64,000 bases of DNA. It comes from Candidatus Poribacteria bacterium (GTDB taxonomy: Bacteria > Poribacteria > WGA-4E > UBA9662). Below, piece by piece: positions 1-9,119 of the stretch (position 1 is the first letter of the stretch; each line of letters begins with the position of its first letter). The position numbers were made by a program, and so were the translations under genes. Under the pieces are notes generated by a model. That model searched no databases. It worked only from the letters and a program-made list of their open reading frames with translations, and was not told the DNA's origin. The DNA lies in the NCBI GenBank assembly GCA_002709695.1, contig PAQF01000059.1, positions 1-64,000 on the forward strand, given 5' to 3'.

Positions 1-3000
1 CTGTCTTCTCAACTGCTTTGATCGTTGCTGTAGCCGTAACTGTCGGTGAACCCGAAGCAGTATCTTTATAATAGAAATCAGCTGTTGTCTGATCAGCACC
101 CACGGTCACCGAAGTAACAACGGTAGCGAAAGCTGCATCGGAAGCGAAAGTACCTGTTTCCGAACTAGACGTCAACCCAACACTAACAGCCTGGGCAGCA
201 GCAGATTCAACACCAGCATCATCAATCAGCTTTACAGTAATTGCCTGAGACGCTTCACCTTTGAATGCGGTTCGAGCAACACTGGAAATCTTCAGGTCAG
301 TTGCACCCTCGGTAGTGGTTACAGCTACACCAGCTGCCAAGGAAACATAAGCACCACTGAAATCGCGCGTAGCACCAGCAAAGGTGTGGCTGCCGACCTC
401 TGTTGGTGACGTGGCATTAGAGTAGACGATGTTAATAGAATTATTAGCACCTAGAGAATTGATAGGCACAATAATGTCCGATCCTGCAGCACCAAAATTG
501 CTAGTAACACTAGCAGCTGAAATGGATCCAGTGGAACCGGAAGCCAAAGACGCCGTTACGCCACCAGCAGAGCCGATGACAGCACTAGGCGCTGTCCAGC
601 CAGTAGGCACTGACAACTTAACAAACCCATTAGCAATATCGCCAACAGTCGTATAAGTAAAGGTAAGCGTCTTGGTACTTCCACCGATAACTGACGTTGG
701 GCTAACCGCTAAACTTCCCGAACCGGCAGAGGCATTAGCCACTGTAACCTCGAGCGTACCAGCAACTGAAGCCGCAACTGAAGCCAGAACACCGGTAGCT
801 GTACCTGTTGATTGAACACCAAAAGTATAACTATTAGCTGCTCCTGGTGCTGTTACATTAGCATAGGTAAAGGTAACCGTTTGGCCAGCTGCCAAGACAG
901 CACCTGTAACTTTAGCTTGTCCAGCAGCATCTTCGACAGCTAGTCCATCAGCATCTACAACAACTGGGAAACTGAGCGTACCAGCTACACCAGTGGAAGC
1001 GACCGTTGTATTAGTTGCATTCGGTGCCGGCCACGCAATTGAAGGAACACTAAACAGAACCGCACCACCATCAACTGGTCCAACAGCAGTATAAACAATA
1101 CTGAAGGAATTACCTGTACTACCAGCAGTAACTGTACCTGTAGTGGAAGAAACAGCAGCTGTTCCTGATCCATCAGCAGCTGAGGTAACCGTAACCGACG
1201 GCTGCGTCAAAATACTGACTAAGCTACCAGTACTGGATCCTTTACTGCTAAAGGCAAAGGAATAGCTTCCCAACTGACTTGGTACCGTTATAGCACTACC
1301 ACCACCATAATTGATAGCTACTGTTTGTCCAGCAGTTAACGATGATACAGGCACTTCAATGGTAGATCCATCACTAGCGATAGTCGCTGTACCAACGGAA
1401 GCACCAGCACCTGCCGTAGCGGTTGTATTAGCCGAAGTAATAACCGGCCAGGCACTACCTGTCGGCAACGCCATCTTGATAGCACCACCATCAATTGTTC
1501 CAGCAGCGGTATAAGTAAAGGTTAAACTAGTTGCATCACCGGCAGCAACACTTGCAGTCTCTGCAGCTACAGTACCAGTACCACTAGCAGCGTTAATTAT
1601 CTCAATAGCCAGAAATCCAGCGACTCCATAATCAGCATCATCTGCTTTCCCCTTAGTGTGAAACTCGAAGGAGGAATAACCGATAGTACCTTGTGCCGTG
1701 GCACCTGAACTACCACTAGCTGCTCCATAACGAACACGGAGAACCTGATCCTTAGCCAAAGAAACAATTGGCACTGTAATAGTATGCCCATCAACGGCTA
1801 CGACTCCTGCAGTACCACCACTAGGCGTTTGCGCTAGCACGTAACCCGCTTGACCAGCATTCAACTGCGGAGCAGTCCAAGGATTAGTTTTATCCGTTGT
1901 CGGAACAATAACCTTCAAGGAACCACCATCCATAGTACCGTCAGCGACCAGTTCAAAGACCAGTTCATTACCAGCCGTAGCAGAAGCAACAGTTGTCAAT
2001 GCACCTGACATAAAGCGCAGCGCCTGCTTACGTCCAGGAGCAACGTTAGTCAAAGTAACCGTCGGTGACAAACCAGTCGGAATACTGGCCAAATCACCCG
2101 TAGCACTAACTTTGGATTGCGGATTAAAGTAAATGGAACCCGCATTAGCTTGAGCTGTACCAGTATAAGTGAAGGTCCTTGTGGCATCTGCAGCCAGAGA
2201 CGCAATAGTCGCAGTTATGGTTCGCCCAGAAACAGCAACAGTGACTCCTGTGCCGCCTGCAATGTTGGCTTCAATAGCCTCTGTTGTAGTGTCTTCCACC
2301 GCTGGTGCAGTCCAACCATCCGGAATAGTTACCGTTACTGCACCTTCAGTAACAACTTCTGAAGCAGTATAGGTAAAGGTATAAGTACCCGCGGTATTGA
2401 CCTCTTTTGTAGCCGGGTCAATAGCCAGCTTACCAGAACCTCCACCAGCCTGAGCTACCGTAATCGACGGTGAGCCGGAAACGATATCAGCCGCAGCAGG
2501 TGAACCAGTAATGGAAGAACGAACATTAAACACAGCAGCTCCCGCAGTTGCTTGAGCTGTTGGTGTCTTATAGGTAAAGACCACTTCATCATCTTCGTCA
2601 ATACCATTGGCCCCAACCGTACCGACATAAGTCTGACCATCAGCACCAATAGCTTCAGCGAAATCCGTCCCAGTATTACTAATACCAGTAATCAAGAGAT
2701 TTCTATCATCATCAGCTGTATCAGGATCATTGACAATCACTGGCGCTGTCCAACCCGCTGGAATCTCCAATGTAACCTGTGCTCCAGCTGCCATAGCTGC
2801 GGCCGGGGTATAGGTTACAACAATATTGGTAGTGAACACCTCACCCACCTTGGTAATAGTGGGACCAGTTGTCAACACAGCTGCACCAGAACCATTCTTG
2901 GCACCGATAACCACAACTTTGGGCGAAACAGCAACACCATCCGCATCCTGAATCGCAAGAAGGTTTGTATCATGACCAGTAGCACTAACAGTAAATTCCA

Positions 3001-6000
3001 AACCGTCGCTGGTATCTGTCGGCGCTATCAGTTCATTGATGGTAAAAGTCACCGTTCCTCCTACTGGCAAAGTATCGATGTAGGCCGTGACAGTACCAGG
3101 TTGTGTCCGTACAAACGGAACCGTGACAGGAGTGGTAGTATCATCCGCAGCCTTCAAGGTCCCACTGGTAACAACCGAAACCTTTATAGGAATGACAGCA
3201 TCAGCCGCATCCTTCAAGACACCATCAGCAGTCCAATTAGCATTTTTAATGGCAAGTGTGTCCCCTGCCATTGTAAAGGTACCAGGCTTAACCAGAGAAA
3301 CGGAACCACCATTCATGGTAGAAGTAGCAGTATAAGTCACAGTATAGTTCACTGTTTCTCCAGCATTTACCTCAGCTGGACTAATCACTGCCGTACCAGT
3401 TCCTCTTCTAGCACTAACAATATCAACGGGTATTCCCGTACCAACTGACGTCCACGCTGTACCATCCGAACTGGTCTGAACCTGGAATAGCGGTGCACTA
3501 TCTCCCAAAGCAGCGGTATTGGGTACCACCGCACCTTTAGTGCTGTCAGTAGCCCCATAATAGAGATTAACAGTCGCACCGTAAGCTAAGCTAACAATGG
3601 GGAAAGAAACCGTCTGCCCAGAATAGCTTGGGTAACCAACAGTTACACCAATATTATTAGCTGACGTATACCCTGGCAACGATGGGTTCCCTTGTGGAGC
3701 AGACCAACCATCTGGCACTATTAGACGAATATACTGACCATCCATCTTACCAGCGGAAGTGTAGTTAAGGGTAACTTTAACCCCAGTATCGCCTGCATGT
3801 ACCTGTTGACGGGTGACTTGTGTGACTGAATTATCAGCATTAGTAATGTCATAATCCGTATCGTTATCTCCTGGATCAGCACGTGTAGCGCCAGTTGTAT
3901 AGTCCACAGCTAAGGTTAACGCACCAGTACCAGTTTCTGGTGCTGCTAATGTGGTTACAAATACCCCCGTATTATCAGTAGGCAAATGACTGGTTTCATC
4001 AGCACTAGCATCCGTTGCAGTACCAGCAGCTTTATCTGTAAAATCAGCACCATTAATAGTCAGAGCAAACACCTGACCCGTTGTTCTGGGAACAGCATCT
4101 GTTGCTGCAGTGACATATTCGTCATCCGCTACGCTCGGCGCAGTCGCATTGTTGTAAGTAATGGTAAGACTCCCACCAGCCTTTAAGGTACCAGTATTGA
4201 CGGAAACCAAAGCGTCAGCTACAGTAACCTCCCCTGCTTCGTTGATTGCAGTGGTGGCATCATCCACAGGCAACGTGGACGTGGTGATTTCACCAACATT
4301 AACTGTAGCATCATCGGTAAATCCTGCCGCTGCCGACCAACGTTTGTCAGCATCACCACTAACAACAGGGATCCTCAAGTACAAATCAGTGGTAGGACTA
4401 ATCTCAACCGGCGTCGTATAAGTAAAGCTAAAGGTATGACCTGTTGAACCAGCGGACACCGAAGCAAGATGGTTAGAACTGGTAACTGTTCCCGCCAGTG
4501 GATCACCATAAGTAGTTTTCAATATAACAGCAGAACCACTTATGTACGCAGCATTGTCAGCATCCCGCTTGCGGTTAAGGGCAGTATCAGTCCGACCAGT
4601 CAGATTACCAGATCTCTGTAAAACAGTAACCGAAGACTCTGCAATGTTATTCGGAGCTGTTCCTTTATAACTGACCTGCAGCACATCATTTGCCGCACCA
4701 ATGGAAGTCATAGCATCAATGGCCACAATAATGGACCGGCCATTGACCGTTATTTTGCTCCCCCAATCTTCTTCAGAGAAAGCCGCATTATTAAGTTTCA
4801 CTTCAATTGTGCGTTCAGCGGCAGTTCCCTTGACAGGCACTGTCCAATCCGAAGGTATTACCAATTCCAGATCACCACTACTAATGTATCGATCAGTAAC
4901 CAAACGATAGTAGAAATCAATGGTTGCCTCACTACCAGCTTGTGTACCAGCACCGTTCATCACCACTTGACGTTCACTATTATTAGCCGGTGTGGTATCA
5001 CCAGTACTAGTAGTGACGATACCAACACCATCGTCACTGACAAAATGAACTGTCGGTACAGAGTCAGGTGCCAGAGCTGTTGTAAAACCAGGACTCGCTG
5101 ATGTATCAGAGGTGGAATTCGCATTAAAGGTCATAGCACCAACACCATTGGCATTCCCAGCCCCAGCAAAAGTCGCTTGATAATATCCCACAGTAACCGA
5201 CTGACCAGCAAGCAAAGACAATTCTTGAACAACAATAGTTCGAGCATCTTCATCAACTACTAACGTACCACCACCTTGCTCAATCCGAACAAAACCGGCA
5301 TCAGAAATCGACTTCGGCGCCTCAGTTGTTGAAACAACCGGTTTCGTGATATCACTATTTAAATTGATTCGGAACGCACCAGTTGCTGCCGCAGCCGTAA
5401 ATTGGAACTGAAAATTATTGACTGTACCATTACGCAAAATGGTCGAAGGTGTGACTGCTAACGTCCCTTTACCTTCTACAGACTGCACATTAACCTCTAA
5501 CGGCAGATTTTCTTTATTGACACCAGCCCTAACCAAACCAGTTGTGGTGTTATTGAGATCAAAACCTGTATAATATGCGGCCAAGGTATCACTCTCTTGA
5601 TCACTTCCTGTTGCCCATGAGTCAGTAGCACCATATCGCATATAAGTTGGGAAATTATACGTTGCAGTTTCAGGGAAACTCAGGTTAGCCAAAGTCACCT
5701 CAATACTCTGTCCAGCAGATAAGGTCACTCCTGTCAATTGCAAATACTTTGCTTGTATAGGTGACAAATCAAGCGCAGTGTAACTGCCTGCCGGTGCAGA
5801 AGTTACGCTGGCATATGCAACACCAGTAGGGCTCGTTGTCTGAGGATTACTACCTAAAGCAGTCACGTAATCAGAATCAATTGCAAACTTTATATCAGCT
5901 CCAGACATAGGGCCAACAGCTTCAAAAGAAAACACGAGTCTTTCATTTGTCGCACCTTTTAAGAACTCGCGTTTAAAAACATCGTCCGTCGTGACATCAG

Positions 6001-8510
6001 CAGTATCCGCACCCGCAGACTGTGTCAGGGGATAAAGAATCGAAGCTTTACCACGCCCTTTAACAACATTGGTTACGTTAACAGCCACCGAACCAGCGGC
6101 AGCAAGTGCACGACCTTCAGCATCCGACCCCTGAGAAGTCGCACTAAAAGTTGACACTCCACCAGCCGGTGGAGCTTTAGCTCCATCATAAGAGATCACG
6201 ATAGTAGCGTCCGCAGCGAGATCAACATCGGTAACGGTGATTGTCCCAGCAGTCGCATCAACGCTCCACTTATCGTTGGCCACAGTAGCGATACTAACGT
6301 TAGTACCTTTCACAAGTTCTGACCAACCAGTCGGAATCTGCACCACAACCTGCCCATTATTCATTTGAGCAAAAGCCGTATAGACAATATCCAAATCTTC
6401 ACTCTCTAAAGAAGCCTGAGTTTCCACTGCTGTAGCAGTACCATCTGTAATAGAAAGCGTACCCGACCCATCAGCAGCATAGTCGACCTCTATCCCTTTA
6501 GTGGCGTCGTTGGGACGAAGCGAAACTGGTTCTACTTGTGGATCAACGACCGGACTCAAATCAACAGTGACATCAGCATAAGCATCCGTATCATCATCAA
6601 AGTTGGTAACCTGGAACCCAATGACATTATTAGCCTTACGAGTTTTCGGCACCTCTACACCGCTATAAGTAAAGACAACCTGCTGGTCTTTACCCAAGGT
6701 GGTGATTTTGTAAATAGCTTGACTTTCAGTTGAAGCATCCGCATCCAAGACTACATTGGCGCTATTGACACTGATGTTAGCTTCAAGGTCCGTGGTCCAA
6801 CCAGTTGGTCGGATAATCTTAATTTTTCCACCGTCCAACTGACCAACAGCTTTATAAGTAATGTTAAAGATATTCCCAGTACTCCCTGCCGTCACAGTAG
6901 TAGTATCCACACCTACCGATCCGGAACCGTTAGCTGCTTTTGTAACTGCCATCGGATAATAATTCAGTACGGGATCAACACCTTTGTTTGTGATAACAGC
7001 CAAACTTCCACTTGCAGTACCACGGGATTTAAAGGTGAATTGGGATCCATCAGCAGAAGCTGTAGATGGTGCTGTAGCAACATATTCGACAGTAATAGAC
7101 TTGGCAGCCTGAATAAAGGTAATAGGAATAGTTAGTTCACGACCCACCAAACTTTCTGTCCCTCGGGTAGCACCATCATCCGTAATTTTCACTCTACCAT
7201 CACCTTCAGTGGCAACCACAGGTACCGGCCAGTTGGCAGGAAACTTGATATGGAAAGCTCCATCACTTATCAACCCAGCCACTGTGTATTTAATGGTAAC
7301 AGTGGTTAAAGCACTAGCAGTTGTAGTCGTGGGAGTCAGCGATATGGTACCGGAACCGTCACCAGCCTGAACAGAAACTTTGGGCTGACTGCCAGTGCCA
7401 AACTTGGTAGCAGGATCAGCTAAACTATCATCATCAGTACCACCATCTGCAATAAGACCATCATCCAACGATGCGTTCGGTGTAGCATAAACTACAAAAC
7501 GCGAGAAACCAGTGGAGGAAGTAGCTGTCGCGCCAGAAGCTGTACCTGTATAACCATAAATAACCGTTAAAGCCTGATTCAATTCCAAAGTACCAACTTT
7601 GATACCAACACCATTACCAGAAAACCCATCAGCGGTACTGACGTCAAAAAGAACTTCTGAAGTGGCATACTGCGCACCATCAGGACCACGAACAATGGTA
7701 TAACCCACCCGACCAGGTTCACCTTGCGGCTCAGTCCAACCAGTTGGCGGAACAATTTCAATTCGACCACCGGTCATAGTACCAGATGCAGTATAAGTAA
7801 AAGTGATAGTATTTCCAGTACTTCCAGCCGAGTAAGGACCTCCAGTAGCTACAACTGTACCGGTACCAACACCTGCACCTTCCACGGTGACTGTCAAATC
7901 GCTAACCTTGAACGGCACACCAAAAGCCGGGCTGGAACTGGCAATACTAATTGCAAAATTGTAAGTCGCTTTAGCAGGAATAGTCACATTAGAATAAGCA
8001 ATTTTCAGTTGATCACCACCACTTAAAGTGGTCAGAGGAACAGTGACCTTGTTACCAGCGTAAGTAATAGTACCAATATCAGCTGCTGTCCCATCACCTT
8101 TGGTAATTTTCAAGTTAGTAGCAGTCGGGGCTGCAAAAGCGGCAGGAATATCCAACACGAGTGAACCACCACTCAACACACCAGTGGCAGAACCAACAGC
8201 AGTATAATACATATCGATCGTCTGTTCAGTTTGACCAGCTGTTTGGGTCTTGGCAGCTACAACAGTATCTTTTTCAAAACTGAGAATACCGGACCCATCT
8301 GCTACCACATCAACATCCATGTTAGCTAAATTTGTTGCATCTTCAGTCACGGTAAAACCCACCAGCCCAACAGTAGTACCAGCTTTAGCAGTATAAACAA
8401 TAGTAATATCTCCATTAGCCGTCGGTGTAACGGTTATGGCTGCTGTTCCCACACCACCACCAACATTAGCACTACCAGAACTTTTCGTAACACCAGCTCC
8501 TACCCAACCA
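1..8510 (-). repeat. Degenerate tandem protein repeat, about 140-160 aa per unit
   Basis: Measured between conserved GW codons, spacing in the C-terminal part is 435, 417, 429, 435 and 438 bp (139-146 aa). It becomes 483, 471, 633 and 507 bp further up, then 1,479 bp with no clear GW, then 474, 432, 507 and 768 bp near the N-terminus. All intervals are multiples of three. The DNA is strongly diverged between units, so the repeats are old and kept at protein level rather than recently amplified. Confidence 0.75.
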
Positions 8511-8719
8511 GCCGGCGGAGTAATAACGATATCGTCGCCACCAGTTGCACCAGTAATATTGATAGTAACACTGTTACCTGAAGAACCAGCAATAAATATG
8601 CTACTGGCAGGAGACACAGTAGCCGCGCCATAGGCCAAGCTGGAAAACAGAGACAACATCACGATCAAGGAAAACACACCAAAAAAGTTTAACTTGCTTG
8701 GAAATGTGTTCGAATTCAT
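1..8719 (-). CDS. Giant secreted repeat protein, C-terminus beyond window
   Basis: One frame stays open from an ATG at 8719 (GGAGG at 8731-8735) to the left edge, giving at least 2,906 codons without a stop. The N-terminus (MNSNTFPSKLNFFGVFSLIV...) is a typical signal peptide with probable cleavage after AYGA near residue 32. The rest is low in aromatic residues and rich in Gly, Ser, Thr, Ala, Val and Asp; I saw no Cys in the roughly 600 residues I read. It is a string of diverged beta-sandwich-like units with the pattern 'V.AGSTGN..TFTYTA' followed by 'P.GW'. The GW tryptophans fall at 8504, 7736, 7229, 6797, 6323, 4844, 4337, 3704, 3233, 2750, 2312, 1877, 1448, 1031 and 596, all in one frame. 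After the last one the sequence changes to a bacterial Ig-like unit containing FYYKD. It is likely an exported surface, matrix or adhesion protein; no catalytic domain was seen. The family name is not recognised. Confidence 0.9.
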   Translation of the reverse strand, partial: MNSNTFPSKLNFFGVFSLIVMLSLFSSLAYGAATVSPASSIFIAGSSGNSVTINITGATGGDDIVITPPAGWVGAGVTKSSGSANVGGGVGTAAITVTPTANGDITIVYTAKAGTTVGLVGFTVTEDATNLANMDVDVVADGSGILSFEKDTVVAAKTQTAGQTEQTIDMYYTAVGSATGVLSGGSLVLDIPAAFAAPTATNLKITKGDGTAADIGTITYAGNKVTVPLTTLSGGDQLKIAYSNVTIPAKATYNFAISIASSSPAFGVPFKVSDLTVTVEGAGVGTGTVVATGGPYSAGSTGNTITFTYTASGTMTGGRIEIVPPTGWTEPQGEPGRVGYTIVRGPDGAQYATSEVLFDVSTADGFSGNGVGIKVGTLELNQALTVIYGYTGTASGATATSSTGFSRFVVYATPNASLDDGLIADGGTDDDSLADPATKFGTGSQPKVSVQAGDGSGTISLTPTTTTASALTTVTIKYTVAGLISDGAFHIKFPANWPVPVVATEGDGRVKITDDGATRGTESLVGRELTIPITFIQAAKSITVEYVATAPSTASADGSQFTFKSRGTASGSLAVITNKGVDPVLNYYPMAVTKAANGSGSVGVDTTTVTAGSTGNIFNITYKAVGQLDGGKIKIIRPTGWTTDLEANISVNSANVVLDADASTESQAIYKITTLGKDQQVVFTYSGVEVPKTRKANNVIGFQVTNFDDDTDAYADVTVDLSPVVDPQVEPVSLRPNDATKGIEVDYAADGSGTLSITDGTATAVETQASLESEDLDIVYTAFAQMNNGQVVVQIPTGWSELVKGTNVSIATVANDKWSVDATAGTITVTDVDLAADATIVISYDGAKAPPAGGVSTFSATSQGSDAEGRALAAAGSVAVNVTNVVKGRGKASILYPLTQSAGADTADVTTDDVFKREFLKGATNERLVFSFEAVGPMSGADIKFAIDSDYVTALGSNPQTTSPTGVAYASVTSAPAGSYTALDLSPIQAKYLQLTGVTLSAGQSIEVTLANLSFPETATYNFPTYMRYGATDSWATGSDQESDTLAAYYTGFDLNNTTTGLVRAGVNKENLPLEVNVQSVEGKGTLAVTPSTILRNGTVNNFQFQFTAAAATGAFRINLNSDITKPVVSTTEAPKSISDAGFVRIEQGGGTLVVDEDARTIVVQELSLLAGQSVTVGYYQATFAGAGNANGVGAMTFNANSTSDTSASPGFTTALAPDSVPTVHFVSDDGVGIVTTSTGDTTPANNSERQVVMNGAGTQAGSEATIDFYYRLVTDRYISSGDLELVIPSDWTVPVKGTAAERTIEVKLNNAAFSEEDWGSKITVNGRSIIVAIDAMTSIGAANDVLQVSYKGTAPNNIAESSVTVLQRSGNLTGRTDTALNRKRDADNAAYISGSAVILKTTYGDPLAGTVTSSNHLASVSAGSTGHTFSFTYTTPVEISPTTDLYLRIPVVSGDADKRWSAAAGFTDDATVNVGEITTSTLPVDDATTAINEAGEVTVADALVSVNTGTLKAGGSLTITYNNATAPSVADDEYVTAATDAVPRTTGQVFALTINGADFTDKAAGTATDASADETSHLPTDNTGVFVTTLAAPETGTGALTLAVDYTTGATRADPGDNDTDYDITNADNSVTQVTRQQVHAGDTGVKVTLNYTSAGKMDGQYIRLIVPDGWSAPQGNPSLPGYTSANNIGVTVGYPSYSGQTVSFPIVSLAYGATVNLYYGATDSTKGAVVPNTAALGDSAPLFQVQTSSDGTAWTSVGTGIPVDIVSARRGTGTAVISPAEVNAGETVNYTVTYTATSTMNGGSVSLVKPGTFTMAGDTLAIKNANWTADGVLKDAADAVIPIKVSVVTSGTLKAADDTTTPVTVPFVRTQPGTVTAYIDTLPVGGTVTFTINELIAPTDTSDGLEFTVSATGHDTNLLAIQDADGVAVSPKVVVIGAKNGSGAAVLTTGPTITKVGEVFTTNIVVTYTPAAAMAAGAQVTLEIPAGWTAPVIVNDPDTADDDRNLLITGISNTGTDFAEAIGADGQTYVGTVGANGIDEDDEVVFTYKTPTAQATAGAAVFNVRSSITGSPAAADIVSGSPSITVAQAGGGSGKLAIDPATKEVNTAGTYTFTYTASEVVTEGAVTVTIPDGWTAPAVEDTTTEAIEANIAGGTGVTVAVSGRTITATIASLAADATRTFTYTGTAQANAGSIYFNPQSKVSATGDLASIPTGLSPTVTLTNVAPGRKQALRFMSGALTTVASATAGNELVFELVADGTMDGGSLKVIVPTTDKTNPWTAPQLNAGQAGYVLAQTPSGGTAGVVAVDGHTITVPIVSLAKDQVLRVRYGAASGSSGATAQGTIGYSSFEFHTKGKADDADYGVAGFLAIEIINAASGTGTVAAETASVAAGDATSLTFTYTAAGTIDGGAIKMALPTGSAWPVITSANTTATAGAGASVGTATIASDGSTIEVPVSSLTAGQTVAINYGGGSAITVPSQLGSYSFAFSSKGSSTGSLVSILTQPSVTVTSAADGSGTAAVSSTTGTVTAGSTGNSFSIVYTAVGPVDGGAVLFSVPSIAWPAPNATNTTVASTGVAGTLSFPVVVDADGLAVEDAAGQAKVTGAVLAAGQTVTFTYANVTAPGAANSYTFGVQSTGTATGVLASVAASVAGTLEVTVANASAGSGSLAVSPTSVIGGSTKTLTFTYTTVGDIANGFVKLSVPTGWTAPSAVIGSAGGVTASLASGSTGSISAASVTSNFGAAGSDIIVPINSLGANNSINIVYSNATSPTEVGSHTFAGATRDFSGAYVSLAAGVAVTTTEGATDLKISSVARTAFKGEASQAITVKLIDDAGVESAAAQAVSVGLTSSSETGTFASDAAFATVVTSVTVGADQTTADFYYKDTASGSPTVTATATIKAVEKT

Positions 8720-8789
8720 AAAGGATTTTTCCTCCATATTGGAATTGTAAAAGTTTGTTTCTCTTCTTTTTTTTCGAGTTTTAACATTC

Positions 8790-8888: not shown

Positions 8889-8921
8889 AAAAAACCTCAA
8901 GTCCTATAGACGGACTAAAGG
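8889..8921 (-). terminator. Rho-independent terminator of the nfo-HMA gene group
   Basis: On the minus strand a 10-position stem (CCTTTAGTCC / GGACTTGAGG, with a wobble and a mismatch) encloses a 7-nt loop and is followed directly by TTTTTT. It lies about 200 bp downstream of the metal-chaperone stop and upstream of the giant gene, so it would separate the two transcription units. Confidence 0.6.
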
Positions 8922-9038: not shown

Positions 9039-9053
9039 GTTGTATAATACAAC
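9039..9053. promoter_or_regulatory. Perfect 15-bp palindrome GTTGTATAATACAAC
   Basis: The two 7-bp arms are perfectly complementary around a central A, and the plus strand contains TATAAT. It sits in the 400-bp gap between the giant gene and the metal chaperone. It could be an operator or part of a promoter; nothing else supports a specific role. Confidence 0.3.
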
Positions 9054-9119
9054 AGATACAAAACAATGTCAATACCCTAAACGAAAAAAAGGCCACAAAA
9101 AAACAACTGATTGTTAATT

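Follow-up and report, generated by a model that had tools for sequence, protein, structure and literature searches.

The 64,000-nucleotide stretch of Candidatus Poribacteria DNA analysed here, hereafter the window, begins inside a gene that runs off the assembly, and the locus poses the question of what a secreted protein of such size, built almost entirely of repeats, is made of and does. On the minus strand, positions 2..8719 can be read as 2,906 consecutive codons, none of them a stop and none encoding cysteine. In DNA of 47% G+C, stops should fall approximately every 20 codons, which excludes a frame of this length arising by chance. Window base 1 is also base 1 of contig C59, and the 3′ end of the gene is missing because the contig ends there, at an assembly edge. 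An antisense frame of 298 amino acids at 2552–3448 (plus strand) was taken as a mechanical by-product of the giant frame, and a plasmid search with 1,033 residues gave no match.

The start codon, an ATG at 8719, is preceded by a Shine–Dalgarno sequence 11 nt upstream and opens a Sec-type signal peptide, MNSNTFPSKLNFFGVFSLIVMLSLFSSLAYGA, that is clear by eye. A candidate promoter sits approximately 325 bases upstream of the gene, leaving a leader of approximately 320 nt, and its −35 and −10 elements are unchanged in the orthologous stretch of G001, a genome of the same genus. The absence of the giant gene from G001 is uninformative, because the G001 contig ends just upstream of it. Rfam matched no riboswitch and no other family in the leader; a terminator-like hairpin lies within it at 8900–8916 (minus strand).

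9044..9072, minus strand: candidate sigma-70-type promoter, TTGACA-17 nt-TATTAT (consensus match 11/12)
8731..8735, minus strand: Shine–Dalgarno GGAGG, read from the sequence
8627..8719, minus strand: signal peptide, residues 1–31, cleavage near AYGA/ATVS, read from the sequence
2..8719, minus strand: giant gene, 2,906 codons by translation, 3′ end past the contig edge

Beyond the signal peptide, a profile of the repeat unit delimits 18 contiguous units over residues 33–2805 (tiled span 30–2830). They average approximately 154 residues and range from 109 to 195, with unit 1 the shortest, and are 13–36% identical to one another in the alignments made; one overlapping three-unit alignment, A3, was left out as its register was wrong. 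At the DNA level the gene holds short repeats only, and none that are near-identical.

8297..8623, minus strand: unit 1, residues 33–141, most diverged, N-terminal and probably outermost (unit profile 38.4 bits)
7868..8296, minus strand: unit 2, residues 142–284, best single BslA match (Pfam BslA 38.0 bits, E 5.6e-9; unit profile 94.2 bits)
7358..7867, minus strand: unit 3, residues 285–454 (unit profile 111.0 bits)
6929..7357, minus strand: unit 4, residues 455–597 (unit profile 114.1 bits)
6470..6928, minus strand: unit 5, residues 598–750 (unit profile 109.1 bits)
6059..6469, minus strand: unit 6, residues 751–887 (unit profile 95.2 bits)
5474..6058, minus strand: unit 7, residues 888–1082 (unit profile 92.1 bits)
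5009..5473, minus strand: unit 8, residues 1083–1237 (unit profile 91.8 bits)
4463..5008, minus strand: unit 9, residues 1238–1419 (unit profile 88.3 bits)
3932..4462, minus strand: unit 10, residues 1420–1596 (unit profile 74.6 bits)
3404..3931, minus strand: unit 11, residues 1597–1772 (unit profile 100.3 bits)
2894..3403, minus strand: unit 12, residues 1773–1942 (unit profile 89.7 bits)
2441..2893, minus strand: unit 13, residues 1943–2093 (unit profile 78.5 bits)
2015..2440, minus strand: unit 14, residues 2094–2235 (unit profile 111.9 bits)
1583..2014, minus strand: unit 15, residues 2236–2379 (unit profile 106.5 bits)
1172..1582, minus strand: unit 16, residues 2380–2516, the modelled unit (unit profile 113.3 bits; AlphaFold pLDDT 94, pTM 0.87)
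725..1171, minus strand: unit 17, residues 2517–2665 (unit profile 108.7 bits)
305..724, minus strand: unit 18, residues 2666–2805 (unit profile 109.3 bits)
2..304, minus strand: start of a different Ig-like domain, residues 2806–2906, by homology to complete relatives

A sequence-only reading of the locus had described a giant, uninterrupted, cysteine-poor secreted frame with a clean signal peptide and diverged beta-sandwich repeats, and with no enzyme domain in its visible part, all of which holds. It had also called the protein repeat-only; this is true of residues 33–2805, but the last 101 visible residues belong to a different Ig-like domain. That domain has a homologue in another protein of the same genome, C30 (E 3.6e-6). 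A 1,600-amino-acid protein of this genome (L020 2611–7413) also contains this Ig-like domain, together with repeated beta-helix-like segments and a FlgD_ig tail.

The same reading did not recognise the repeat family. The unit is a BslA immunoglobulin-like domain, in both family and fold. BslA is a small bacterial hydrophobin of Bacillus. In hmmscan, the whole protein matches Pfam BslA (PF17735) over seven stretches with an E-value of 6.7e-33 and 113.7 bits, against a curated cutoff of 38.7; half of the units (9/18) match individually, the best of them at 38.0 bits, just below that cutoff. A profile built solely from the window units retrieves the BslA structure 4bhu at 2e-4, with the next entry at 0.03 and all others above 0.4. 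Modelling of a single unit, a check that the earlier reading had proposed, leads to the same fold: the AlphaFold model of unit 16 is confident (pLDDT 94, pTM 0.87), and in a Foldseek search of the PDB the top TM-scores, 0.69/0.72, go to 4bhu_C at approximately 20% identity, followed at lower scores by YcnI, integrin, cohesin, carbohydrate-binding folds and CLIPPER domains. Confidence is moderate for a model of three units (pLDDT 82.5, pTM 0.67), and a straight rod is for that reason more than it can support. The protein thus shares an Ig-like fold and a significant profile match with the B. subtilis biofilm surface layer protein BslA/YuaB, and differs from it in architecture. As opposed to BslA, which is secreted as a single domain, has a hydrophobic cap in three parts and bears a CxC tail, it carries 18 units per chain, has lost most of the alignable cap leucines and is free of cysteine.

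BslA-like units are present in 12 of the 59 genomes searched, the own genome included, and in 6 of 11 genera (12/85 at the phylum level), which goes against the earlier suggestion of a protein specific to the organism. Complete homologues from the same order contain 6–14 units, followed by the Ig-like domain whose start is seen here at residue 2806, further Ig-like and pre-tail domains and, at the C terminus, a type IX sorting domain of the TIGR04183, PF18962 or FlgD_ig type; TIGR04183 scores 31.0 and 29.8 bits in two of them, above the cutoff of 23. The sequence-only reading had named such a tag among the anchors to look for, and the full-length homologues do end in one, the C terminus of the window protein itself lying past the contig. 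The NYPNPFNPETWIPY tail would tentatively point to Poribacteria. Since the homologues continue for approximately 600–820 residues after the array, the full length here would be approximately 3,500–3,650 residues. The own genome encodes PorV-family proteins above cutoff and an SprA-like frame of 2,170 amino acids, matched in four segments at best 64 bits, below the 200-bit family cutoff. The protein resembles type IX secretion cargo in the C-terminal Por_Secre_tail/FlgD_ig domain of its full-length homologues and in the PorV-family proteins of its genome, with the difference that the contig ends before any sorting domain of its own.

Three frames of the own genome that carry type IX tails and are open at their 5′ edge, L120 (contig C19), L118 (C80) and L119 (C39), were considered as the missing 3′ end. 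Their sequences show no overlap with the end of C59. C80 starts with cadherin-like repeats of its own and C39 and C19 start with different domains, and none was taken as the continuation. In G001 and G002, too, contig edges truncate the C19-type frame. The window gene is exceeded in size by a minus-strand frame of 4,762 amino acids in G002 (L079, contig C44), which has a few BslA-like units. Single units also occur outside arrays in several relatives, among them G012 and G014, whose frames L024 and L039 (832–878 amino acids) place one BslA-like unit between an esterase-like domain and a dockerin-like pair and end in a type IX tail.

G012, a genome in one contig, encodes 11 full-length paralogues of the giant BslA-array protein. 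Their mean pairwise identity is 0.32–0.66 over most of the first approximately 800 residues and 0.85–0.96 in the C-terminal half. Seven of the 11 carry 4–19 perfect copies of a 10-bp repeat, ACTCAAAGCC, between an ATG with a Shine–Dalgarno sequence and the signal peptide, and just one of the seven, with 11 copies, has this ATG in the reading frame of the giant protein. Nowhere else in G012, nor in any of 29 further genomes, does ACTCAAAGCC occur in three or more copies. Because 10 bp is not divisible by 3, changes in repeat count would turn the gene on or off, and a frame-shifting repeat after the start is a classic form of phase variation. The G012 paralogues are thus apparently phase-variable, as judged from one assembly. 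Phase variation of the window gene itself was rejected, with no repeat near its start.

L068, L069 and L072–L075 of G012: loci of the 10-bp ACTCAAAGCC repeat, for example L074 888–997, minus strand

Given its relationship to BslA, the protein might be a giant hydrophobin, each unit an interfacially active domain and the polymer a water-repellent coat on cells or colonies. The match of the units to BslA in sequence and fold speaks for this. The residues that we take to form the BslA cap follow in part PMC7615278 and PMC5532214; the cap is buried in solution and exposed at the interface (PMC7615278, PMC5532214). In an alignment of BslA with the 18 units, using the residue numbers of the 4bhu chain, the core columns (67, 69, 71, 82, 84, 86, 115, 117, 129, 131, 133 and 146) are 78–100% large hydrophobic. 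Of the seven cap leucines that could be aligned (cap 3 could not), three are retained, with large-hydrophobic fractions of 0.82 for L77, 0.67 for L119 and 0.94 for L123; the hydrophobic equivalents of L77 and L123 are a further point in favour of the coat. The other four are lost: L76 (0.11), L79 (0.00) and L124 (0.06) are almost always replaced by polar or small residues, and 17 of the 18 units have a deletion at L121. Likewise the C-terminal CxC motif of BslA, which its paralogue YweA also lacks, has no counterpart in the 2,906 visible residues, free as they are of cysteine. With the core kept and four of seven cap leucines gone, the units are not predicted to be hydrophobins; they probably have the BslA fold without that activity, and we regard a water-repellent coat as very improbable.

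A second alternative, with the sheath already proposed in the sequence-only reading, is a surface-layer or sheath protein whose copies join side by side in a lattice enclosing the cell. Such a protein would also be very large, cysteine-free, secreted and multi-Ig, with a near-consensus candidate promoter, and the three-unit model has the S-layer protein 7ptp_A among its weak matches in structure. An essential lattice fits poorly with a patchy distribution (12/59 genomes), a variable number of units and apparently phase-variable paralogues in G012, and we consider it unlikely. Slightly less unlikely, though still doubtful, is a scaffold that binds polysaccharide or matrix, its units serving as accessory modules for carbohydrate binding as they would in the relatives' esterase fusions. 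The single unit between esterase and dockerin-like domain in those type IX-tailed proteins is consistent with it, as are the cohesin and carbohydrate-binding folds among the weaker matches of the unit model and a weak match of one unit to NPCBM_assoc. Outside the fold core, however, no aligned position is conserved as a binding site would be, and no known carbohydrate-binding family is matched strongly. Because the unit stands alone in secreted esterases, it could nonetheless bind polymer as well as act as a spacer.

The architecture resembles that of fibrillar adhesins and periscope proteins (PMC8286594, PMC9210967), likewise very long secreted chains composed mostly of tandem Ig-like stalk domains, of which the window protein has 18 in at least 2,906 residues. 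The main text of those surveys does not mention BslA (PMC8286594, PMC9210967). In the visible 2,906 residues Pfam and NCBIfam match no known adhesive domain, but unit 1 is diverged and the C-terminal part lies past the contig, as would any anchor region. It does not qualify as a periscope protein, whose tandem repeats are near-identical. CLIPPER/DUF11 domains (PMC12617251, 9ifr) also form beta-sandwich stalks in Gram-negative surface proteins, and match the unit weakly in structure (TM 0.53/0.58); DUF11 has no sequence match in the units at E up to 10, and the unit alignment has no conserved lysine column of the kind that isopeptide bonds would need.

A long stalk or adhesin at the cell surface is thus the most likely identity of the protein, in place of a member of an unknown repeat family, and we think it rather probable that the gene encodes a fibrillar surface protein exported by Sec and the type IX system. 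The surface or adhesin type of role proposed from the sequence gains support in this respect. The chain would enter the periplasm via Sec and cross the outer membrane through an SprA/PorV translocon, and its C terminus would then anchor or release it. By comparison with complete homologues, the missing end of approximately 600–750 residues would hold more Ig-like domains, as well as a conserved pre-tail domain and, at the C terminus, a type IX sorting domain. The units would form the stalk and present the diverged N-terminal unit outward, an orientation suggested by the G012 paralogues, in a relative rather than in the window gene, which vary most at their N termini and in seven cases carry apparent phase-variation repeats. 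The tip may bind other cells, a host or matrix, which would make the protein a spacer and adhesive fibre, not a water-repellent film.

More tentatively, cap-less tandem BslA-fold units may be a separate class of stalk module that, in this order, builds giant type IX surface fibres with varying N-terminal tips, whose expression a 10-bp repeat that shifts the frame would switch in one species or more, as a system for varying attachment or recognition. Phase variation in these apparently uncultured bacteria could be tested on the G012 family, with its variable N termini and frame-shifting repeats. That giant type IX-exported arrays are built from the BslA fold, with most of the cap leucines gone, suggests a more general Ig-like module of extracellular proteins, on which the film-forming cap is a specialisation.
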